Assembly: GCA_002737365.1 (NCBI GenBank) | Contig: NSIL01000001.1 | Coordinates: forward strand, 62,001-126,000 | DNA: 64,000 bases | Origin: Acidobacterium sp. | GTDB taxonomy: Bacteria; Acidobacteriota; Vicinamibacteria; Vicinamibacterales; UBA2999 | Direction of reading: 5' to 3' | Shown here: piece by piece, positions 2,219 through 49,967 of the stretch | Layout: every line of letters begins with the position of its first letter | Position numbering within the stretch: position 1 is the first letter of the stretch | Position numbers and translations under genes: made by a program | The notes under the pieces: generated by a model | What the model saw: only the letters and a program-made list of their open reading frames with translations | Told to the model about the DNA's origin: nothing | Database searches by the model: none

Positions 2219-2665
2219 ATGTTCTCCACGCTGGGTCTAGGCGGGTTGATGCTCTCACGCGGCGGTGCCGTGCTGGGCGCCACTGCACAGGCACCGGCCA
2301 CGCCCACGGGTCCGTACACCGTGCCCCCGCTGGCCTATCCGTTCGCCGCCCTCGAGCCGCACATCGACGCCATGACGATGCAGATTCACCACGATCGGCA
2401 TCATCAGACGTACGTCACCAACCTCAACAACCTCGTCGCCACCACCTTCACCATGGGCACGGATGGCAGTAATGTGCGTCGCGGCACCACCGACGTCCCT
2501 CAGGGAGGGTCGTCCTGGATCTCTCCCCGGTGGGCACCAGTGGCGGGGGTGTTCATGTCCAGATTGCGCTCCAGCGTGGCGGGAGATGAGGCGAGGGGGA
2601 TGGCGGTTCGAAACGGGACTCGGGTCGTGTTCGTGAGTCGCGCAAGCCAATGTGTCGCCGCCTAG
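2219..2665 (+). pseudogene. truncated Fe/Mn superoxide dismutase (N-terminal fragment only)
   Basis: The first ~75 codons read as a signal-bearing Fe/Mn superoxide dismutase N-terminus: [18 protein letters not shown], then IHHDRHH with the first metal-ligand His, then [10 protein letters not shown]. Similarity stops near 2450; the rest of the 148-codon frame (to 2665) is unrelated, and the other three metal ligands (a His in the middle, Asp and His near the C-terminus) are absent. Upstream of the ATG the frame stays open and encodes Arg-Arg-Gln before Met-Phe, resembling a twin-arginine signal whose true start is unclear. The fragment cannot be an active dismutase, so it is called a remnant. 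No other gene is seen between 2666 and 2872. Confidence 0.8.
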
Positions 2666-2793
2666 CGGGGATCTTTCTGTTAGCCCCGTGTTCGCCCGAA
2701 GACACAATCTGGCTCGTCGGGAGGCGAAACTCGCAAATTGTCTACGGAATCTTGAGCCGACGATCCGGTTTGAACGGACGACCTGCTGATAAA

Positions 2794-2860
2794 AAGACAG
2801 CCGCAGATTAAGCGCAGATTCGATATCGATGAAATCCTCTTCCTAATCTGCGGCCGTCTT
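2794..2860. repeat. imperfect inverted repeat downstream of the DUF1028 gene
   Basis: Arms AAGACAGCCGCAGATTA (2794-2810) and TAATCTGCGGCCGTCTT (2844-2860) pair over 17 bp with one G-T type mismatch around a 33-nt loop. The loop contains a partial copy of the arm (GCGCAGATT, 2812-2820). It lies 13-79 bp beyond the stop of the leftward DUF1028 gene and may end that transcript, although there is no clear U-tract. The string resembles dispersed intergenic repeats of environmental bacteria. Confidence 0.55.
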
Positions 2861-2872
2861 GAATCGGTGGCC

Positions 2873-3691
2873 TTACTTCACCGGCCGCTGACTGCCCTTC
2901 TCGCGCGCCGCGTTCCAGCTTTCGACGACCCGGCGCAGTTCCTTGAAGGGGTTGGGGCTGTCATCCACCTGCAGGCGCAGCACCGTGTCGTTGTTTAACC
3001 ACACGCCACCGCCCTTCTTGACGATCACCATCGACGCGGCCTGCATGCCGCGCGTGTCACCGCCCGCGGCCTGGCCGGCATCGAGCGCCGCCATCAGGCG
3101 CAACGACAAATGGCCCTTGGTCTCCTCGAACGCCTTCACCATGCCCTCGACGACAGCCGGACCAGCGAGGATGTTGCCCTGCGCCGTGCAGAACTTGCCC
3201 TGCTTGCCGCCGGCCCAGGTCGTGGCCTTCGGGCCGGTGAAGGTCGCGGTGTTGCCCTGCAGGTCGATGACGGCGAACTGCCGGCCCTGCTTGGTCCAGC
3301 GCTCGGGCTGTGGGTCGGGATCGCTATCCCAGATCGCCTTGATGATGGCGTCGGGCTTCATGCCGGCCTTAAGCAGCGCAATGCCCTTCGGCCCGTAACT
3401 CACATCCACGATCGCCTGCGTGGCGACCACGCCCGCGTCGGCATCGGCTGTCAGCACGCCGGTGAGCGTAAACACGCGGGACTGGACAGCTCCCCCCACT
3501 TCACCCGTTTCCGGGTCGTAGCCAAGAATGGAGAACGTCGCCACGGTGGGCGGCAACTGGTCCTGCGTCTGCGTCGCCGCGCCGACGCGCGTGACCGCGA
3601 GTCCGGCGCACAGAAGGAACCCAAGCCCCAGGCCCGCCACCTTCGCTGAAGCTACGGCGCCCAAGCACATCTCAAGTCGATTGTTCTTCAT
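2873..3691 (-). CDS. DUF1028 family protein, predicted exported
   Basis: 272 residues with a hydrophobic N-terminal signal (to about residue 36, ...VTRVGAA), then a DUF1028 core starting at ATFSILGYDPETGEVGGAVQS. DUF1028 proteins have an Ntn-hydrolase-like fold; their biochemical role is not settled. The ATG at 3691 shares its first base with the rsmE stop (TGATG), so translation is probably coupled; a GTG one codon upstream is equally possible, and a GGAG lies 9 nt before the ATG. Part of the signal-peptide region (3637-3659) is made from a short element that also forms the C-terminus of IlvE, which is odd. Function is not assigned. Confidence 0.85.
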   Translation of the reverse strand: MKNNRLEMCLGAVASAKVAGLGLGFLLCAGLAVTRVGAATQTQDQLPPTVATFSILGYDPETGEVGGAVQSRVFTLTGVLTADADAGVVATQAIVDVSYGPKGIALLKAGMKPDAIIKAIWDSDPDPQPERWTKQGRQFAVIDLQGNTATFTGPKATTWAGGKQGKFCTAQGNILAGPAVVEGMVKAFEETKGHLSLRLMAALDAGQAAGGDTRGMQAASMVIVKKGGGVWLNNDTVLRLQVDDSPNPFKELRRVVESWNAAREKGSQRPVK

Positions 3692-4437
3692 CACAACTCA
3701 CTCCAGGTTGTTAACAAGGCCGCCAAGGCCACGAGCGGGGCCGCATCAGCCCGCAAGGTGCGGCCGCCAAGCGACACCGGCACCACGCCAGCGGCGAATG
3801 CCGCCGAGAGTTCTGCAGGCGCCCACCCGCCTTCTGGTCCCACGATCACATGCGCGGATTCAGGTTTCCCAACCGCTTGCACTGGTAAGACACGGCCCCC
3901 CATCAAGGGGGGTCCTACCGGTTCAACACAAAGTAGCCGCACGCTGCTGGTCGGCTCGTTGAGATACGACGCCAGGCCTTGAGCGGGCGCGACCACCGGC
4001 ACTACGGCGCGACCGCACTGCTTGGTCGACGACACGGCAATCCGCTGCCACCGCGCCACGCGCTGGCTCTTCGCCACCGTCGACAGGCTGATTTCACTGC
4101 GGTCGCTCACCACGGGCCAAATGCCGGTGACGCCCAGCATCACCGCATCACGAACCACGTCGTCCATCTTGTCGGCCTTGAGGATGCTGATCACCAAGGT
4201 GAGGGGGACGGCGACTTCGGGCGCCGCGGCAATCGCTTCGATCGCGTGAATCGATGCCGAACGCTTCCCCGACTCGATGACCTCGGCGCGCCACAAACCG
4301 CCGCGACCGTCAAAGACCTCGACCTCGGCACCGGTCGCGAGTCTCAGCACGCGCACCAGATGCTCGGCCTCGTCATCGGGCAAGGGCACGCACGCCGCAG
4401 TCGCATCAAGGCCGGGCACGTAGAAACGCGGACGCAC
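3691..4437 (-). CDS. rsmE: 16S rRNA (uracil-1498-N3)-methyltransferase RsmE
   Basis: 248 residues. The N-terminal PUA-like part starts RPRFYVPGL and includes HLVRVLRLATGAEVEVFDG; the SPOUT methyltransferase part carries the knot motifs VGPEGGW and LGGRTLRADAAP typical of RsmE, which methylates U1498 of 16S rRNA using S-adenosylmethionine. A GTG start at 4437 is chosen because an upstream extension would run into the divergent kinase gene and the family begins at this point. Just before the VGPEGGW motif the protein has a Gly/Pro-rich loop (VGPPLMGGR) encoded by a C6/G6 hairpin. First gene of a two-gene unit with the DUF1028 gene. Confidence 0.93.
   Translation of the reverse strand: MRPRFYVPGLDATAACVPLPDDEAEHLVRVLRLATGAEVEVFDGRGGLWRAEVIESGKRSASIHAIEAIAAAPEVAVPLTLVISILKADKMDDVVRDAVMLGVTGIWPVVSDRSEISLSTVAKSQRVARWQRIAVSSTKQCGRAVVPVVAPAQGLASYLNEPTSSVRLLCVEPVGPPLMGGRVLPVQAVGKPESAHVIVGPEGGWAPAELSAAFAAGVVPVSLGGRTLRADAAPLVALAALLTTWSEL
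3894..3914. repeat. G/C hairpin inside rsmE
   Basis: CCCCCC (3896-3901) and GGGGGG (3907-3912) pair around the loop ATCAA, extended by a G-T and a G-C pair. It is inside the coding region, encoding a Gly/Pro-rich loop ahead of the SPOUT signature motif. Confidence 0.55.
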
Positions 4438-4442
4438 GCGGA

Positions 4443-4452
4443 GAGTATACTC
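4443..4452. promoter_or_regulatory. palindromic bidirectional -10 element (GAGTATACTC)
   Basis: The 25 bp between the divergent start codons of rsmE (4437) and the kinase gene (4463) hold a perfect 10-bp palindrome whose core reads TATACT on both strands. Forward TATACT (4446-4451) lies 11 nt before the kinase ATG; reverse TATACT (4449-4444) lies 6 nt before the rsmE GTG. Both mRNAs would be leaderless or nearly so. Confidence 0.5.
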
Positions 4453-4462
4453 AAGCCCACAG

Positions 4463-5446
4463 ATGTTCTTTCGCGGACAAACGGTCGGGAAGTACCGCAT
4501 CCTTTCCCCTCTTGGAAGCGGCGGCTTTGGCAGCGTTTATCTGGCCGAAGACACCTGGATCGACAAGAAAGTCGCAATCAAGGTTCCCCATCGCCAGAAC
4601 CTTGACTTCGGCGAATTGCTCCACGAACCCCGGCTGCTGGCCACGCTCAGCCATCCGAACATCGTCACCGTGCTCACCGCGGAGAAACAGGACGACATTT
4701 TCTTCATCGTGATGGAGTACGTGCCGGGCGACACGCTTGAAGCCGTGATCGATCGCGACGGCACGCTCGACCTGCCCAGGGCGCTGGACTACACCTGCCA
4801 GATCTGCAACGCGATGGACCATGCGCACAAGCACGGCGTCATCCACCGCGACCTGCGCCCCGGCAATGTGCTGGTGACCGAGCAGGGCCTGATCAAGGTC
4901 GCCGACTTCGGCACCTCGCGATTTCTCGAGATCGCCGCGCATGGCACAACCGTCATCGGCAGCCCGCCCTACATGGCGCCCGAGCAGTTTCAGGGCAAGG
5001 CAGTGTTTGCGTCGGATATTTATTCGCTCGGCGTGACGATGTATCAAATGTTCACCGGCGTGCTGCCCTACGAGACGCCGATGCCGGGCGACCTCGATCG
5101 GTTGATGCGCGGAGAGCTGGCGTCGCCGCCGAAGTTAAAGAACCCCAAGCTACCCAAGGCGATCAGCGACATCGTGATGAAGGCAATTGCGGCTGACATC
5201 CCCTCGCGCTATCAAAGCGCCTCCGCATTGCTCGAAGCCGTCCTCGCGGCCCGGACGCCGTCCCCTGCCTCGCGGCGCCCATGGCGGCCGATGACGACGA
5301 CCACCGGCACTGGCTCGGCAGAGGTCCAGGACATCCAGGCCCGTCTCAAGGCCCGCGAAACCGTGCAAGCTAAGTTCTGCTGGAAATGCGGCAAGGCGCT
5401 CGCGGCCCGCGCCGACGCCTGTCCCTTCTGCTCTGAACGGCAGTAG
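4463..5446 (+). CDS. Ser/Thr protein kinase with C-terminal zinc ribbon
   Basis: 327 residues. A Hanks-type kinase domain spans about 8-270: glycine loop GSGGFGSVY, VAIK lysine, HRDLRPGN catalytic loop (Arg replaces the usual Lys of HRDLKPxN), DFG and the APEQ motif. No transmembrane helix follows, so it should be cytosolic. A C-terminal CWKCGK...CPFC motif (about 306-324) looks like a zinc ribbon that may bind partners or nucleic acid. Substrates are unknown. It starts 26 bp from divergent rsmE with no clear Shine-Dalgarno site and is followed directly by a perfect hairpin. Confidence 0.92.
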   Translation: MFFRGQTVGKYRILSPLGSGGFGSVYLAEDTWIDKKVAIKVPHRQNLDFGELLHEPRLLATLSHPNIVTVLTAEKQDDIFFIVMEYVPGDTLEAVIDRDGTLDLPRALDYTCQICNAMDHAHKHGVIHRDLRPGNVLVTEQGLIKVADFGTSRFLEIAAHGTTVIGSPPYMAPEQFQGKAVFASDIYSLGVTMYQMFTGVLPYETPMPGDLDRLMRGELASPPKLKNPKLPKAISDIVMKAIAADIPSRYQSASALLEAVLAARTPSPASRRPWRPMTTTTGTGSAEVQDIQARLKARETVQAKFCWKCGKALAARADACPFCSERQ

Positions 5447-5494: not shown

Positions 5495-6463
5495 ATGTCA
5501 TTTGCGGGAACCGGCAAAATCTGGATGAACGGGGTGTTGGTGGACTGGAAGGACGCCACGATCCACGTCGCATCACACGCACTTCACTACGGCACCGGCG
5601 TCTTCGAGGGCATCCGCGCCTACGACTCCAAGACCGGCACCAACATCTTCCGCCTCGAACCGCACATGCGCCGGCTGCTGGACTCCTGCCGGGTGTACCG
5701 GATGGAACCGAAGTGGTCGCAGGCGGAGTTGACACAGGCCGTGCTCGAGACGGTGCGCGTCAACGGCTTCAAAAGCTGCTACATCCGTCCCCTGGTCTAT
5801 CGCGGCTACGACTCGCTGACGCTCGATCCCAGGCCCTGCCCGGTCGAGGCGTCGGTGGTCGTGTGGGAATGGAGCCTGATGATGGGTGCCGAGGCGCTCG
5901 AGAAAGGCATCGACGTCGGCGTCAGTTCGTGGACTCGTCTGGCGCCGAATACCCTGCCGGCGCTCGCCAAGGGGACTGCCAACTACGCCAACTCCGCGCT
6001 GATCAAGATGCAGGCGTCGCTCGACGGCTACGCCGACGCCGTGGCGCTCGATGAGAGCGGCCTGTTGAGCGAAGGCAGCGGCCAGAACTTGTTCTTGGTC
6101 CGCGACAACGTGATTTACACCCCCTCGCTCGGCTCGTCCGTGCTGCAGGGCCTGACCCGCGATTGCGTCATCACGCTGGCCGCCGACCTGGGCGTCACCG
6201 TTCGCGAGACGTCCATCCCGCGCGAGTTCTTGTACCTGGCGGACGAAGCGTTCTTCTGTGGCACGGCTGTCGAGATCACCCCGATTCGGTCGTTCGACAA
6301 GATCGCCGTTGGTAACGGTAAACGCGGCCCCCTCACCTCGGCATTGCAAACGCGCTTTTTCGGCATTCTCAGCGGTGACCAGCCCGACACGCATGGCTGG
6401 CTGACTCCCGTTGGTGTAACCGCCTTCGCCGAGGCGACGGCGAGCCAGGCTCAGTCGCGGTAA
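5495..6463 (+). CDS. ilvE: branched-chain amino acid aminotransferase
   Basis: 322 residues of fold-type IV PLP aminotransferase. Visible are KIWMNGVLVDWKDATIHV at the N-terminus, HYGTGVFEGIRAY, KGTANYANSALIKM (PLP-lysine region) and LSEGSGQNLFLVRD. It interconverts leucine, isoleucine or valine with their 2-oxo acids. The ATG at 5495 is favoured over an in-frame codon at 5465 because the family starts here and a TACAAT box lies just upstream. The native C-terminus should be near ...THGWLTPV; the last ~16 residues (GVTAFAEATASQAQSR) are encoded by a repeat-like element. Confidence 0.93.
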   Translation: MSFAGTGKIWMNGVLVDWKDATIHVASHALHYGTGVFEGIRAYDSKTGTNIFRLEPHMRRLLDSCRVYRMEPKWSQAELTQAVLETVRVNGFKSCYIRPLVYRGYDSLTLDPRPCPVEASVVVWEWSLMMGAEALEKGIDVGVSSWTRLAPNTLPALAKGTANYANSALIKMQASLDGYADAVALDESGLLSEGSGQNLFLVRDNVIYTPSLGSSVLQGLTRDCVITLAADLGVTVRETSIPREFLYLADEAFFCGTAVEITPIRSFDKIAVGNGKRGPLTSALQTRFFGILSGDQPDTHGWLTPVGVTAFAEATASQAQSR

Positions 6464-6476
6464 CCGGGGGGACTCA

Positions 6477-7646
6477 ATGCACGTCAATGACCTGCTGAAG
6501 CTGGCCGTCGAACGGGGCGCCTCCGACCTGCACCTGAAAGTCGGCAGCTACCCCATGGCGCGGACCCATGGGCACCTGGCGACCGTGTCGGAGGAGAAGC
6601 AACTCGGTCACGAGGATCTGGTCGAGATGGCCGCGTCGATCATGTCGACGGCACAACGCCAGAAATTCCAAGACTCGCAGGAAGTCGACCTGGCCTACAG
6701 CGTCCCTGGCCTGGGCCGCTTCCGTTGCAACGTGTTCCAGCAGCGCGGCACTATTGGCTGCGTGCTCCGCGTGATTCCAGTCACCGTCAAGAGCCTCGAC
6801 GATCTGGGCCTGCCGCCGATCCTGAAACAGATCGCCGAGGAAGAGCGTGGGCTGGTGCTGGTGACCGGCACCACCGGCAGCGGTAAGAGCACCACGCTCG
6901 CCGGAATGGTCGACCACATCAACAAGACCCGCACCTCGCACATCATCACCATCGAAGACCCGATCGAGTACTTGCACCGCGACAACCGGTGCATCATCAA
7001 CCAGCGAGAGATCGGCGTCGACACGCGTTCGTTTGCGCATGCCCTGCGCAGCGCCTTGCGCCAGGACCCGGACGTGATTCTGGTCGGCGAAATGCGCGAC
7101 ATGGAGACCATTGAGACGGCCATGCATGCGGCCGAGACCGGTCACCTGGTGTTCTCGACGCTGCACACGCTGGATGCGACCGAAACCATCAACCGCATCA
7201 TCTCGGTGTTCCCGCCGCATCAACAGAAGCAAATCCGCCTGCAGTTGGCATCGGTGCTGAAGGCGGCGATCGCCCAGCGCCTGATTCCGCGCATCGACGG
7301 CACGGGCCGCACCCCGGCGGTCGAAGTGCTGGTCGCCACGCCGTTCATCAAGGACTGCGTGGTCGACAAGGACAAGACCCACCTGATCGCGGGCGCCATT
7401 GCCCAGGGCACGTCGCAGTACAGCATGCAGACGTTCGACCAGTCGATCTTCAGCCTGTTCAAGGGCGATCTGATCAGCTACAAAGAGGCCTTGTGCTGGG
7501 CGTCGAACGTGGACGAGTTCAAGCTGCGGGTGCAGGGCATTTCAACTACCGCCGACATCTCGCGCGACCAGATGGCGGGCACCATCTTCGCCGGGCTGTC
7601 GCAGCCTCCACCCAAGGCGCCTGAAATCACGCGGTTTGGGAAATAA
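6477..7646 (+). CDS. pilT: type IV pilus retraction ATPase PilT
   Basis: 389 residues. N-terminal PAS-like domain (about 1-110, MHVNDLLKLAVERGASDLHL), then a RecA-like secretion ATPase with Walker A GTTGSGKST (about 131-139), the Asp box and catalytic Glu (ITIEDPIEYLH), Walker B (DPDVILVGEMRD) and His box (GHLVFSTLHT). PilT powers pilus disassembly and twitching motility. The C-terminal tail beyond residue ~355 is less typical, and PilU is an alternative. A purine-rich GGGGGGA lies just before the ATG. No other pilus gene is in the window. Confidence 0.93.
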   Translation: MHVNDLLKLAVERGASDLHLKVGSYPMARTHGHLATVSEEKQLGHEDLVEMAASIMSTAQRQKFQDSQEVDLAYSVPGLGRFRCNVFQQRGTIGCVLRVIPVTVKSLDDLGLPPILKQIAEEERGLVLVTGTTGSGKSTTLAGMVDHINKTRTSHIITIEDPIEYLHRDNRCIINQREIGVDTRSFAHALRSALRQDPDVILVGEMRDMETIETAMHAAETGHLVFSTLHTLDATETINRIISVFPPHQQKQIRLQLASVLKAAIAQRLIPRIDGTGRTPAVEVLVATPFIKDCVVDKDKTHLIAGAIAQGTSQYSMQTFDQSIFSLFKGDLISYKEALCWASNVDEFKLRVQGISTTADISRDQMAGTIFAGLSQPPPKAPEITRFGK

Positions 7647-7649
7647 GTC

Positions 7650-7664
7650 AACCTGCTTCACTTT
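7650..7664. repeat. repeat AACCTGCTTCACTTT, copy 1
   Basis: In the pilT-recX gap. Exact 15-nt copies occur at 32475-32489 (inside ubiE) and 49535-49549 (inside the sarcosine-oxidase-like gene). Here AAGTCAA before CCTGC pairs imperfectly with TTCACTT after it. Confidence 0.6.
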
Positions 7665-7673
7665 TACTCACTT

Positions 7674-7696
7674 TTACGGGCACCGTAAGTGGCAGA
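7674..7696. repeat. short palindrome plus GTGGCAGA tail, copy 1
   Basis: Arms TTACGG and CCGTAA flank GCA and are followed by GTGGCAGA, in which the GTG is the recX start. A second copy (CTACGG-TGC-CCGTAA then GTGGCAGA) is at 47164-47186 upstream of clpC. The 14-mer CCGTAAGTGGCAGA is identical in both. Confidence 0.5.
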
Positions 7697-8147
7697 TGCC
7701 TACCTCGTCGCGCTGACCATGCTGTCGCGGCGTGAGCTGTCCGAGGCGCAAATTCGCACCCGCCTGGCTCGGAAAGAATTTGAGGACGATGAGATCGAGA
7801 CCGCGGTGGAGCAGTTGCGGCGGGACGGAACGATCAACGACCGCCGCGTGGCACTGGCCGCCGCCCGCCTCGAAAGCACCATCCGCCACCGTGGCCGCGC
7901 CCGGGTCATCCAGAAGCTGCGCTCGCTCGGCATTGACGGCGACGTGATCGAATCGGCGGTCAACGAAGTGTTCGAAGAAGTGGACGAGGGCGCCCTGCTC
8001 GACCGCGCCTTCGAGCGCCGGCTCCGGGGCAAGGCCCCGAAAGACCTCGACGAAAGAGGCCGCGCCCGCGTGGTCCGCGGCCTGGCTGGTCAGGGCTTCT
8101 CCATTGCTGCCATTTTGAAGCGGCTCAAGGGCACTCCCGACCGATAG
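7689..8147 (+). CDS. recX: regulatory protein RecX
   Basis: 152 residues made of repeated three-helix RecX units: LTMLSRRELSEAQIRTRLARKEF, then RLESTIRHRGRARVIQKLRSLGI, then ARVVRGLAGQGFSIAAILKRL. RecX binds and inhibits RecA filaments. The GTG at 7689 gives a normal N-terminus; it lies within the small repeat at 7674-7696 and has no evident Shine-Dalgarno site. recA itself is not in the window. The alaS start follows 23 bp downstream. Confidence 0.9.
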   Translation: MADAYLVALTMLSRRELSEAQIRTRLARKEFEDDEIETAVEQLRRDGTINDRRVALAAARLESTIRHRGRARVIQKLRSLGIDGDVIESAVNEVFEEVDEGALLDRAFERRLRGKAPKDLDERGRARVVRGLAGQGFSIAAILKRLKGTPDR

Positions 8148-8157
8148 GCAGAGACCT

Positions 8158-8169
8158 TACAATAGGAGG
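8158..8169 (+). promoter_or_regulatory. TACAAT box and AGGAGG directly before alaS
   Basis: TACAAT (8158-8163) is followed immediately by AGGAGG (8164-8169) and the ATG at 8170. A Shine-Dalgarno touching the start is too close for normal use, whereas a -10 ending 6 nt before the ATG fits a leaderless transcript. The two readings cannot be separated by eye. Confidence 0.4.
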
Positions 8170-10878
8170 ATGCATCCCCGCGAAATACGCGCCTCCTTCC
8201 TGACGTACTTCGAGCAGCACGGTCACCGCGTGGTCCCCAGCAGCCCGCTGTTGCCTGGCGATGACCCCACCCTGCTGTTCACCAATGCCGGGATGAATCA
8301 GTTCAAGGACGTATTCCTCGGCCGCGAGAGGCGAGACTACAACCGCGCCACGACCTCGCAGAAGTGCATGCGCGTCAGCGGCAAGCACAACGATCTCGAC
8401 AACGTCGGTCCCTCGCTGCGCCACCACACCTTCTTCGAGATGCTCGGCAATTTCTCATTCGGCAACTACTTCAAGCACGACGCGATCGAGCTGGCGTGGA
8501 ACCTGCTGACCAGGGAATGGAAGCTGGATCCGGCCACGCTGTACGTCACGGTCTTCAAGGGCGCGCCTGGCATTCCGCGCGACGAAGACGCCTACCAGCG
8601 CTGGCTGGACTTCGTCCCCGCTGACCACATTGGCGAACTGGGCATGGCCGACAACTTCTGGGCCATGGGCGACACCGGCCCATGTGGCCGCTGCTCTGAG
8701 ATCTACGTGGACCGCGGCGCCACGGTGCCCGGTACCGGCAACTTCGTCGTGGATGTCGAGTCGGGCAGCGAGCGCTTCGTCGAGATCTGGAACAACGTGT
8801 TCATGGAGTTCGAGCGTGACGACCAGGGCACGCTCACGCCGCTGCCGGCACCGTCGATCGACACCGGCATGGGTCTCGAGCGCATCGCGGCGGTCATGCA
8901 GGGCACCACCTCGAACTACGACACGCCGCTGTTCATGCCGCTGCTGACGGCGATCGGCGAGCAGACCGGCCACGTGTATGGCAAGTCGATGTCGGCCACC
9001 GACATCTCCATGCGCGTGGTCGCCGATCACGTCCGCGCCGCGACCTTCCTGATCGCTGATGGTGTCGTCCCGTCGAACGAATGGCGAGGCTACGTGCTGC
9101 GCAAGATCATGCGCCGCGCCATGCGGCACGGCCGCAAGCTCGGCAAGCATGAGCCGTTCCTGTTTTCGCTCGCTGACGTCCTGATTCAGGAGATGGGCGA
9201 CGCCTATCCAGAGCTCAAGGCCGGACGCGACTCGGTGGTGCTGGTGATCAAGAGCGAAGAAGAACGCTTCGACGCCGTGCTCACCGGCGGCCTGCCCCGC
9301 CTCGAGGAGGTGCTTGAGCGCGCGGCCAAGACGACCAGGGTGCTACCAGGAGACGAGGCCTTCAAACTGTACGACACCTTCGGCCTGCCCCGCGACTTCA
9401 TCGAGGATCTCGCTGTCAACCAGGGGCTGGGGTTCGACGCCGAAGGATTCGACGCCGCCATGGATGGCCAGAAGGCCAAGGCCCGCGCCGGCAGTTCGTT
9501 CGACAGCAAGAAGGGCGACAATTTTACTTTCATGGCCGGCGACGAGCGCGAGGAACTGCGTGCCGTCGGTGATCACTTCGATGGCTACACCGAGACCACG
9601 CTGAAGGGCGTCCCGGTGCTGGCCCTGTTCAACGACCAGAACACCTCGGTCGTTTCACTCGAGGCCGGCGAGAACGGCTACGTCGCCCTCGGCAAGACGC
9701 CGTTCTACCTCGAGGCCGGTGGCCAGGTCTCAGACCAGGGTTGGATGGAGCCGGCATCGGGCCAGCGTTTGCGCGTCACAGGCGTCTCGCGCCTTGGGCC
9801 GGGCCTGCCACGCCTGCACCGCGTGGAGAACATTGAAGGCCGGCTCGCGCTGCGCGACCTGGTGACGACGCACGTCGACGTGGCATTGCGTGATGCGACT
9901 CGGCGCAATCACACCGGCACGCACTTGCTGCACGCAGCGCTGCGCAAGGTGCTGGGCCCGCACGTCAAGCAAGCAGGCTCACTCGTCTCGCCCGATCGCC
10001 TGCGTTTCGACTTTCAGCATTTCTCGGCGGTGACCACCGAACAACTGCTCGACGTCGAGCGCATCGTCAATTCCGCAATCCTGAAAAATGACGCGCTGAG
10101 CACTGCGGTCCGTAATACGCAGGAAGCCATCGCCGCTGGCGCGATGGCGCTGTTCGGTGAGAAATACGGCGATCAGGTCCGCGTGGTCGCGGTCGGCGAC
10201 GGTTCGTTCAGCACCGAACTCTGTGGCGGCACGCACGTGAAAGCCACTGGCGACATCGGCTCGTTGTTGATTACCGCCGAGTCCGGCGTCGCCGCCGGCG
10301 TGCGGCGCGTCGAGGCCGTCACGGGCCTCGGCGCGCTCGGCCTTGCGCGGCAAGCGCTCGATGAGGTCAAGATGGCGATGGACGTGTCAGGGGCCAAGCG
10401 CGGCGAGGTGCCGCTCTACATCCAGGGCATCCAGCAAGTCCTGAGCAAGACGCAGAAAGACCTTCAGCAGGCTAAGACGAAGCTCGCGATTGGCGGCACC
10501 GGCGGCGGCACCGACGAAGACCAGGTGGAGATTTCCGGCACCACGTTCATTGCCCGCGAGGTCAAGGACGTGGACAAAGAATCGCTCCGCGCTCTCGCCG
10601 ACACCCTCAAGTCGCGGCTCAAGAGCGGTGTGATCGTCTTGGCCGCAGCCATGCCTGACGGTAAGGTGTCGCTGGTCGCCACCGTGACGCCAGACGTGGC
10701 GACGAAGGCGCCCGCTGGCCAACTCGTGAAGCAGTTGGCGCCGATCGTGGGCGGCGGCGGGGGGGGTCGCGCCGACTTTGCCGAGGCCGGCGGCAAAGAT
10801 CCGGCGAAGATTCAGGATTTACTGAAGGAAGCCCGTGGGTTGGTCGAAAAGCTCCTCGCCGCCGATAAGGTAAGCTGA
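8170..10878 (+). CDS. alaS: alanyl-tRNA synthetase
   Basis: 902 residues, close to the usual ~875. The class II catalytic core is at the N-terminus (SPLLPGDDPTLLFTNAGMNQFK, LRHHTFFEMLGNFSFGNYFK). The editing domain carries the zinc-site motifs HTGTHLLHAAL and CGGTH, and the C-Ala/DHHA1-type region ends with GGGGGGRADFAEAGGKD. It charges tRNA-Ala and clears mischarged Ser and Gly. ATG at 8170. The lytic transglycosylase starts 6 bp after its stop, so the two are probably co-transcribed. Confidence 0.97.
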   Translation: MHPREIRASFLTYFEQHGHRVVPSSPLLPGDDPTLLFTNAGMNQFKDVFLGRERRDYNRATTSQKCMRVSGKHNDLDNVGPSLRHHTFFEMLGNFSFGNYFKHDAIELAWNLLTREWKLDPATLYVTVFKGAPGIPRDEDAYQRWLDFVPADHIGELGMADNFWAMGDTGPCGRCSEIYVDRGATVPGTGNFVVDVESGSERFVEIWNNVFMEFERDDQGTLTPLPAPSIDTGMGLERIAAVMQGTTSNYDTPLFMPLLTAIGEQTGHVYGKSMSATDISMRVVADHVRAATFLIADGVVPSNEWRGYVLRKIMRRAMRHGRKLGKHEPFLFSLADVLIQEMGDAYPELKAGRDSVVLVIKSEEERFDAVLTGGLPRLEEVLERAAKTTRVLPGDEAFKLYDTFGLPRDFIEDLAVNQGLGFDAEGFDAAMDGQKAKARAGSSFDSKKGDNFTFMAGDEREELRAVGDHFDGYTETTLKGVPVLALFNDQNTSVVSLEAGENGYVALGKTPFYLEAGGQVSDQGWMEPASGQRLRVTGVSRLGPGLPRLHRVENIEGRLALRDLVTTHVDVALRDATRRNHTGTHLLHAALRKVLGPHVKQAGSLVSPDRLRFDFQHFSAVTTEQLLDVERIVNSAILKNDALSTAVRNTQEAIAAGAMALFGEKYGDQVRVVAVGDGSFSTELCGGTHVKATGDIGSLLITAESGVAAGVRRVEAVTGLGALGLARQALDEVKMAMDVSGAKRGEVPLYIQGIQQVLSKTQKDLQQAKTKLAIGGTGGGTDEDQVEISGTTFIAREVKDVDKESLRALADTLKSRLKSGVIVLAAAMPDGKVSLVATVTPDVATKAPAGQLVKQLAPIVGGGGGGRADFAEAGGKDPAKIQDLLKEARGLVEKLLAADKVS

Positions 10879-32023: not shown

Positions 32024-32029
32024 ATTATA
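32024..32029 (-). promoter_or_regulatory. TATAAT -10 for the tonB-miaA-hfq run
   Basis: Consensus TATAAT on the minus strand overlaps the ubiE stop region and ends 14 nt before the ATG at 32009. It would separate this transcript from the upstream menaquinone operon. Confidence 0.45.
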
Positions 32030-32819
32030 CCGGCTTGGCGGCTTGGGGACCTGAGCCCTTTTGTCCCGTATAGAGATAGACGGCGCCAAACATGAATGGC
32101 CGTGCCTCAACCTGTGAAAACCCTGCGGCAGACAGAATGCCGGCAAACTCGGCGCCGTACGGGAACGCGCCGATGGACTCGGGGAGGTAGGAGTATGCCG
32201 CGTCATGGCGTGATATGGCACGCCCGATTCGCGGCAGGATGTTGCGTGAGTACCACTGGTAGATGGGCCCGAACACCGGCGAGCTGGGCGTGCCGAACTC
32301 CAGGATCGCCAGCCGGCCACCCGGACGAAGTACCCGCACCAGTTCCCGGCATGCCACCTCTGGCTGCTGGACATTGCGAATCCCAAACGCAATTGTCGCG
32401 GCATCCACCGAGGCGCTTGCCACTGGCAGGTTCATGGCATCGCCCCGAATCAGCTGGACCCGGCTCGATAAATCAACCTGCTTCACTTTCACGAGACCGT
32501 GCGTCAGCATGGCGCCCGAGAAATCGACGCCGACGACGCGGGCCGCTCCACTCGCCTTCCGGGCCGCGCCGAGGGCCACATCCGCGGTGCCGGTGCAGAC
32601 ATCAAGCAGCCGCTCGCGACCGGTGAGTTTGAGCGAGGCGATGGCGTGATGCCGCCAGTAGCGATCGACGCCGCCTGACAGCACCGTGTTCAATAGGTCA
32701 TAGCGGCCGGCGATGGCGTCGAACATGCCGGCGATCTTCGCGGGCGACTTGTCGACGGTCACACCGTGCGCTTCAGCCGCCGTGTCTCGCGCGATGGCGG
32801 ACGGGTCGTTAGCCGACAT
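32025..32819 (-). CDS. menG: demethylmenaquinone methyltransferase (UbiE/MenG)
   Basis: 264 residues. Class I methyltransferase with KIAGMFDAIAGRYDLLN, LLDVCTGTADVALG (SAM site), IAFGIRNV and LEFGTPSSPVFGPIYQWYSRNILPRIG, the UbiE/MenG signature. In this Mqn context it should carry out the last step, methylating demethylmenaquinone. It overlaps mqnP by 11 bp. The VKVKQVDLSS segment is encoded by copy 2 of the AACCTGCTTCACTTT repeat. Confidence 0.92.
   Translation of the reverse strand: MSANDPSAIARDTAAEAHGVTVDKSPAKIAGMFDAIAGRYDLLNTVLSGGVDRYWRHHAIASLKLTGRERLLDVCTGTADVALGAARKASGAARVVGVDFSGAMLTHGLVKVKQVDLSSRVQLIRGDAMNLPVASASVDAATIAFGIRNVQQPEVACRELVRVLRPGGRLAILEFGTPSSPVFGPIYQWYSRNILPRIGRAISRHDAAYSYLPESIGAFPYGAEFAGILSAAGFSQVEARPFMFGAVYLYTGQKGSGPQAAKPV
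32475..32489. repeat. repeat AACCTGCTTCACTTT, copy 2 (inside menG)
   Basis: Exact 15-mer shared with 7650-7664 and 49535-49549; on the coding strand it supplies a KVKQV stretch of MenG. Confidence 0.6.
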
Positions 32820-48863: not shown

Positions 48864-49967
48864 TTAGCGCGGCCGAAATCGAGTCGGCGAGAACAGGTCG
48901 ATGGGGTGATGCGTCGCCCCGTCGATCGCCAGGTCGGCCAGGATCTCCCCTACTACGCTCGCAAACTTGTAGCCGTGGCCGGAACACGGCGACGCGATCA
49001 CAACTTGCTCGTGGTCGGGATGACTGCCGATCACGAAATGATGATCGGGTGTCAGCGTGTATTTGCAGGACACGGTCTCGACCAGCCTCCCCGCCGCGAG
49101 TGACGGCAGGCAGGGCGCAAGCGCAACGCGGATCGCCGCTTCGTCCTTCTGGAGGGAACGAAAGAACGCCACCTTCACGCGCCCGTCCTGATCGGCCGGA
49201 AATCCGTAGAACTGCACGCCGTCGCCGAGATCCCAGATGTAGATGGGAAACCGATCCGCGGCATATGCAGCAGCGCCGCCCGAGGGTTCGAGCCAATACA
49301 GCACCTGCGGCTCGACGACGAGCGGCAACTCGTCCACCTTGAATAGTGCTGATGCCCACGAGCCCGGCGCCAGGACGAGGCGACCGGCCTCGTATTGCGA
49401 GTGGGAGGTCGTCACTTCGACAGTTCCGGTGGCGGTGACGCGCCAGCCCTCGACCCGTTCGTCGAAGTGCAGGTGGGCGCCGTGAGCGGCCGCCACGTCC
49501 AAATGAGCCCGAATCGCTTCTTCCGGGAAAAGTGAACCTGCTTCACTTTCGTAAAAAGCGACGGTTTCTTGACGCGGGGTAAAAGGCGGAAACCGCCGAT
49601 GGATCTCCGCGGCATCGAGCAGTTCGTGCGCAAGGCCATGCTCACGCGCGCTGCGTAAGCTGCCGCTGACTACATCGCAGTCGGGCGCGCCGATCATCAG
49701 CCCACCGGTGATTTGGAGCAGCCGCCGCCCGGTATCGGTCTCGAGCCGACGCCATAACTCATAGGCCCGGCGCAGCAGCGGCACGTACGCGGGGTGTTCG
49801 AAATAGGCCAGGCGAATCACTCGCGACTTGCCATGGCTCGAGCCGCGATCGTGCGCGGCCTGGAACTGTTCAACGCCGAGCACGCGTTGGCCCCGCGACG
49901 CCAGGTGCGCGGCCGCCGCGCTCCCCATGCCGCCAAGGCCGACGACGATGGTGTCGAACGGTGGCAT
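48864..49967 (-). CDS. monomeric sarcosine oxidase / N-methyl-L-tryptophan oxidase family flavoenzyme
   Basis: 367 residues. FAD-binding VGLGGMGSAAAAHLASRG at the N-terminus, then GSSHGKSRVIRLAYFEHPAYVPL; the covalent-flavin Cys is in SCKYTLTPDHHFVIG, followed by SPCSGHGYKFASVVGEILADL. It oxidises secondary N-methyl amines to formaldehyde, amine and H2O2. The ESEAGSLFPEE segment contains copy 3 of the AACCTGCTTCACTTT repeat. Confidence 0.9.
   Translation of the reverse strand: MPPFDTIVVGLGGMGSAAAAHLASRGQRVLGVEQFQAAHDRGSSHGKSRVIRLAYFEHPAYVPLLRRAYELWRRLETDTGRRLLQITGGLMIGAPDCDVVSGSLRSAREHGLAHELLDAAEIHRRFPPFTPRQETVAFYESEAGSLFPEEAIRAHLDVAAAHGAHLHFDERVEGWRVTATGTVEVTTSHSQYEAGRLVLAPGSWASALFKVDELPLVVEPQVLYWLEPSGGAAAYAADRFPIYIWDLGDGVQFYGFPADQDGRVKVAFFRSLQKDEAAIRVALAPCLPSLAAGRLVETVSCKYTLTPDHHFVIGSHPDHEQVVIASPCSGHGYKFASVVGEILADLAIDGATHHPIDLFSPTRFRPR
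49535..49549. repeat. repeat AACCTGCTTCACTTT, copy 3
   Basis: Exact 15-mer inside the sarcosine-oxidase-like gene. Here GAAAAGTGAA before CCTGC and TTCACTTTC after it make a near-perfect stem, showing the element's palindromic design. Confidence 0.6.

Follow-up and report, generated by a model that had tools for sequence, protein, structure and literature searches.

The window, which is the whole 64-kb stretch of DNA that was analysed, belongs to a genome of 3,053,113 bases in 54 contigs (97% complete), here called G000; other genomes are cited by label (G002–G008), contigs by C number and loci by L number. A sequence-only reading of the window had reported three exact copies of a 15-mer, at 7650-7664, 32475-32489 and 49535-49549, and all of these coordinates are correct. 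The first copy lies between pilT, whose product is of the PilT/PilU family (TIGR01420), and recX (PF21982). The second lies in menG, which encodes a MenG/UbiE methyltransferase (TIGR01934). The third lies in a gene that had been called sarcosine-oxidase-like; this is fair at the family level, but TIGR01377 (soxA_mon) scores below its cut-off, and the product is an FAD oxidase that matches the NCBIfam N-methyl-L-tryptophan oxidase (NF008425) with 441.6 bits against a cut-off of 257. The features of the window are:

7643..7689, plus strand: complete REP element, occupying the gap between pilT and recX (from the sequence and from pattern and tail searches)
7645-7663, plus strand: head of this element, AAGTCAACCTGCTTCACTT, with 0 mismatches to the genome-wide pattern
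7674-7688, plus strand: tail hairpin of this element, TTACGGGCACCGTAA; head plus tail were found in the tail-based search
7644..7646, plus strand: pilT stop codon TAA (ORF 6477-7646), overlapping the REP element
32470..32488, plus strand: REP head AAATCAACCTGCTTCACTT, 1 mismatch, in menG (minus strand, 32025-32819)
49528..49549, plus strand: REP head AAAAGTGAACCTGCTTCACTTT in the oxidase gene (minus strand, 48864-49967)

In menG the head encodes KVKQVDL, in the oxidase gene ESEAGSLF, and neither protein is any longer for it. The menG copy lacks a CGTAA-type tail hairpin.

The three copies had been judged to be beyond chance, and the counts bear this out. The 15-mer occurs 3 times in the window and 0 times in 100 dinucleotide shuffles of it, and an order-2 Markov model trained on the window predicts 0.0021 exact copies per genome and 0.00004 per 64 kb. 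A genome-wide count, suggested earlier as a check against random expectation, gave 18 exact copies in G000 against 0 for the reversed pattern. Chance as the source of the whole family is ruled out by the shuffles, the reversed control and the Markov expectation. The 15-mer was found in 3 of the 40 genomes scanned (G000, G005 and G006). A scan of public genomes returned at least 114 stretches in 257 billion bases; the 80 matches listed came from many phyla, one match each with one exception, and such matches are what chance gives at 257 billion bases.

Comparison of the contexts of the 18 exact copies showed that the 15-mer is half of a longer palindromic head, roughly AAAAGTSAA-CCTGC-TTCACTTTT, and that behind the head there is usually another short palindrome, TTACG-N5-CGTAA; in 12 of the 18, CGTAA is no more than 60 nt away, and no GT[AG]G foot is conserved beside them. 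The elements occur singly or as inverted pairs, with three head-tail-head inverted pairs (REPINs) in G000, on C37, C43 and C45, and more in G005 and G006. The copy number is low: 18 copies are exact, and about 24 heads in all are found when up to 1-2 mismatches are allowed in the better arm type. A tail-based search of 22 genomes, in which CCTGCT and the tail were fixed and the left arm was free, gave 9 matches in G000, 3 in G002, 7 in G004, 13 in G005 (including one, at C34:1089, whose arms do not pair and which is probably due to chance) and 19 in G006, nothing in the other 17 genomes, and for the reversed control a single match in total, in G000. Counting degenerate copies at 3 mismatches without reference to the tail gave results too noisy for a census (reversed controls 11+11, 5+3 and 8+3 versus real counts of 24+27, 18+16 and 18+15). 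G008 has a lone near-perfect head, AAGTGAACCCGCTTCACTT, at C28:12765-12783 (L309), and no other match to the head pattern at up to 2 mismatches.

The arms of the stem covary. The 51 rows of the tail-based search were reduced to 50 by removing identical contexts and then to 39 distinct heads, in which 258 of 351 arm positions form Watson-Crick pairs, as against 225.8 +/- 5.7 (maximum 244) in 2000 shuffles, which take no account of shared ancestry among the rows; the first base of the right arm is fixed by the pattern, as are its last two where the tail is adjacent. Stem pairs 2, 4 and 5 show A-T/G-C swaps on both sides. The near-perfect stem described at the best copy is real: at 49535 it has 8 bp and -6.1 kcal/mol as single-stranded DNA (z -1.77, equalled in 10 of 200 shuffles). 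The head of the intergenic copy at 7650 folds weakly (z -0.79), the best hairpin there being the tail at 7674-7688, and the menG copy gave no fold (z +0.32). Five loci (L001, L007, L015, L403 and L183) had no match in Rfam 15 at the gathering score.

The 23 heads of G000 make up 20 sites, 12 of which overlap a predicted stop codon or lie within 10 nt of one. In this census, stop codons were predicted with a simple codon-bias gene finder, except that the RAYT stop was read separately; one of the 12 stop-linked sites rests on a weak gene call, and heads with the loop CCTGC or CCGGC alone were taken in, so that the copy upstream of the RAYT gene (loop GCTGC) and other loop variants are outside the 20. 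Sixteen sites lie outside gene interiors and four inside genes, namely menG, the oxidase gene and two tandem genes for membrane proteins of ~900 aa; two overlap gene starts (an OppD-like ABC protein and MsrB) and two lie elsewhere. A variant head (AAAGGAACCTGCTTCACTTT and kin) was observed at the predicted starts of genes at L006:1504-1520, L065, L288:1559-1575, L298 and L297:1498-1514, among them genes for OppD-like, MsrB and glycine dehydrogenase proteins, which begin VKQVP, VEQVP or MKQVPF; the true starts of these genes may lie further downstream.

A position behind stop codons, together with the T-rich right arm, is what an intrinsic terminator or an mRNA 3'-end stabiliser would show, and REPs elsewhere are reported, in the sections of PMC3733652 and PMC6006769 consulted, to affect termination and mRNA stability. 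However, the stem is A+T-rich, and copies also occur within genes and around the RAYT gene. A terminator scan of 6400-8400 shows one site, at 7377-7394 (shuffles mean 1.7), and none at 7643-7689, so an intrinsic terminator at the element is rejected. We consider it very unlikely that termination or stabilisation explains the element, although either may be a secondary effect of it.

A profile search found one Y1/HUH transposase gene in G000 (PF01797, E 1.9e-10, 40.9 bits against a cut-off of 23). Its product, P0003, matches the NCBIfam model of the REP-associated tyrosine transposase (NF047646) with E 7.7e-18 and 64.8 bits, below the cut-off of 80, and it is therefore classed as a RAYT by its flanking repeats. 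The features, all on contig C21 outside the window, are:

C21:7136-7744: RAYT gene (product P0003)
C21:7024-7042, plus strand: upstream RAYT-flanking head with the loop variant GCTGC
C21:7739-7757, minus strand: downstream RAYT-flanking head

Both flanking copies face inward, with their tails toward the gene, and the RAYT stop codon TGA sits within the downstream copy. The RAYT gene is flanked on both sides likewise in G006 (14587, plus, and 15291, minus) and G005 (10692, plus, and 11387, minus). The HxH residues (H61 and H63) and Y123 are identical in 27 of 27 aligned homologues; no solved structure matched the RAYT in sequence at E 0.01. Across 119 genomes, RAYT identity is 100% in G000, 98% in G006 and 77% in G005, with 54% as the next best, and the genomes that have the 15-mer are exactly those with a RAYT at 77% identity or more. 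None of the Y1 genes detected in G004 (six) and G002 (one) is flanked by the element, and since both genomes carry relatives of it, its presence does not depend on the RAYT today. Inverted repeats of at least 15 nt flank 39 of 54 RAYT-homologue loci in the order (a set that includes 4 genes fetched twice) versus 40 of 2862 mismatched pairs. Within 300 nt either side, many RAYT homologues of relatives (L335-L361 and others) have inverted repeats that are quite unlike in sequence, being GGGGTCTGGCACC-, GGGGTCGGGAGTCATT- or GGGGACAGTCCCTGT-like, which suggests many separate REP families in the order.

The earlier description of a dispersed palindromic element is thus well founded, given the 18 copies, the covarying arms, the inverted pairs and the associated transposase. 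We conclude that the 15-mer is very likely part of a REP/REPIN family belonging to its single-copy flanked RAYT (TnpA-REP), and that the element was probably spread by the one transposase gene it flanks. Counting against this are the NF047646 score below its cut-off, the lack of a conserved GT[AG]G foot, the low copy number, and the relatives of the element in G004 and G002, whose detected Y1 genes it does not flank. As the sequences show, one strand folds into a hairpin of 7-9 bp with the loop CCTGC/GCAGG beside the conserved TTACG-N5-CGTAA, and the RAYT retains the HxH and Tyr residues. By analogy with studied TnpA-REP enzymes, it would bind and nick the single-stranded hairpin and move copies in trans, and the moved copies would persist mostly just 3' of stop codons, where they would do least harm.

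The element had also been proposed to be able to settle in coding frames. One in-frame insertion, outside the window, is plausible, but the menG and oxidase copies replaced sequence. Whether homologues of menG lack the encoded stretch had been put forward as a check, and the alignment shows that they do not: relatives without the element have their codons in register and no gap at the site; the 12 menG and 7 oxidase orthologues shown are all free of gaps there. Because these alignments with element-free orthologues are gap-free, about 24 nt appear to have been replaced codon for codon in each gene. The menG head is common to G000, G005 and G006 and absent from the 9 other orthologues shown. 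The oxidase head is exact in G000 and has one base different in G004, where it is the only match of that arm type (at up to 2 mismatches), and the other orthologues shown are without it; the tree places G004 relative to G005 with a support of 55% only.

It could be argued that the in-gene copies are codon coincidences, with KVKQ in MenG and E-x-E-A-G in the oxidase spelt like the element by luck, for the residues at both places resemble those of relatives, and G007, which lacks the element, has AAAGTGAAGAAGG at the same menG codons with a low GC3 (0.50). Against this stand the Markov expectation given above and the composition of the oxidase patch, whose GC3 is 0.12 versus 0.76 for the rest of the gene in G000 and 0.12 versus 0.81 in G004. 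In addition, the 24-nt menG patch is among the windows most divergent from G004, with 11 of 24 positions different against a window mean of 4.0 (only 5 of 216 windows reach this), while the three carriers differ from one another there at only 1-2 of 24. Other results run counter to replacement: the menG patch has an ordinary GC3 in G006 (0.75), and the divergence of the oxidase patch is not unusual against G005 (7 of 24, where windows average 6.1) or against G007 (11 of 24, a value reached by 47 of 355 windows). Coincidence is, in our judgement, most improbable.

Between G000 and G004 the oxidase patch differs at 1 of 24 positions, whereas windows of the gene average 5.3. Such constancy, like the palindromic form and the conserved loop CCTGC, would suit an operator or a nucleoid-protein site kept under selection, in genes as well. 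Most sites, however, lie behind stop codons and not ahead of genes, the arms vary freely provided that pairing holds, and the gene that is consistently flanked is that of the transposase, which makes selection for such a site highly improbable. As far as sequence comparison can tell, the menG and oxidase copies are in-register replacements, not insertions.

The two remaining in-gene sites lie outside the window:

L183:3-2615 and 2656-5427, minus strand: tandem genes for ~900-aa membrane proteins, both with an element-encoded loop

These proteins match the LA_3751/LA_3752 putative glycosyltransferase family weakly (45 bits against a cut-off of 200). The full element spells their loop in G000 (both paralogues) and in G005, and other arm types do so in G004, G006 and G002; G003 is without 8 codons at the loop, and in G008 a similar peptide, QNDPASLARNPR, is encoded by codons that do not resemble the element. 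It is plausible from these alignments that the loop is a true in-frame insertion; judging from the G008 codons, it may instead predate the element there. If all coding copies were ordinary insertions in the style of the Rickettsia palindromic elements, with the length later restored by deletion, this loop would be accounted for, including the absence of 8 codons from G003. For menG and the oxidase, however, the gap-free orthologues would require exact compensating deletions twice, and the peptide of G008 suggests that the membrane-protein loop, too, may be older than the element. We regard insertion followed by deletion as quite unlikely for the coding copies as a whole.

At sites with the same flanks, the head differs between genomes as a paired whole. 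The arms of site B are AAAAAGGGA/TCCCTTTTT in G006, AAAAAGGGA/TCCCCTTTT in G004 and AAAAAAGAA/TTCACTTTT in G005, and those of sites F and H are unchanged. Either compensatory mutation or conversion by another copy would fit this pattern. Some copies may have arisen or been renewed by replacing resident sequence of equal length, which would account both for the gene copies in the window and for the switching of arm type. A tentative and rather doubtful route is that REP sequence overwrites resident DNA, leaving its length unchanged, when the RAYT sets free single-stranded REP DNA, which pairs with a stretch of partial similarity and is copied in; that stretch would be an earlier REP, or part of a gene that half-matches by chance, and the REP strand would act like a recombineering oligonucleotide. 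If this were true, REP families would spread and homogenise by templated copying, arm switches as paired wholes would be explained, and KVKQVD in MenG, like ESEAGSLF in the oxidase, would be an 'overprint' left in coding sequence; REPs would edit coding sequence without indels and escape insertion-based searches. If it were false, the Acidobacteria would still provide a clear-cut REP-RAYT pair whose conserved block is not of the GTAG kind. Replacement may occur alongside transposition.

How REPs spread is described as still unexplained in the part of PMC8266576 consulted. In this genus a small family, of about 20 sites per genome, occurs with a single flanked RAYT and with equal-length copies in genes, and in related species the family is present while no RAYT is flanked by it; taken together, these features separate insertion from replacement, as the large families with their hundreds of copies do not. 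In the portions of the REP literature searched, we found no described case in which a REP replaces coding sequence at equal length, although one may exist.

The following comparison draws on excerpts of the papers cited. REPs, REPINs and RAYTs are already known (PMC3116915, PMC8266576), as are in-gene REPs and REPs that supply stop codons (PMC3733652) and atypical REP feet, one kind of which occurs in Acidobacteria (PMC6006769). With intragenic GTAG/CGTC REPs and the Rickettsia palindromic elements the present family shares in-frame copies and copies that give stop codons; those elements are described as insertions that mostly encode 20-30 aa, whereas the menG and oxidase copies add no length (PMC3733652). 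Atypical REP-like hairpins are shared with class 3 and subclass 2.6 Y1 genes. Class 3 is reported chiefly from Planctomycetes, Acidobacteria and Proteobacteria, with about 600 copies in Solibacter usitatus; compared by foot and motif, its foot is CnGA and its motif Y----Q, whereas the motif of P0003 reads Y-V-E-A-N (PMC6006769). With the REP/REPIN-RAYT systems of groups 2 and 3 (subclasses 2.2 and 2.5) the family shares a short dispersed palindrome, inverted pairs, sites mostly behind stops, a single RAYT between inverted copies and the HxH and Tyr residues (PMC3116915, PMC8266576, PMC6006769). Unlike them, it has the conserved block TTACG-N5-CGTAA and no conserved GT[AG]G foot, an A+T-rich stem, and about 20 sites per genome versus hundreds in the well-known families. 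The family is a new member of the REP/REPIN-RAYT systems and ordinary in kind, but shows two well-documented replacements inside genes and a conserved block other than GTAG.
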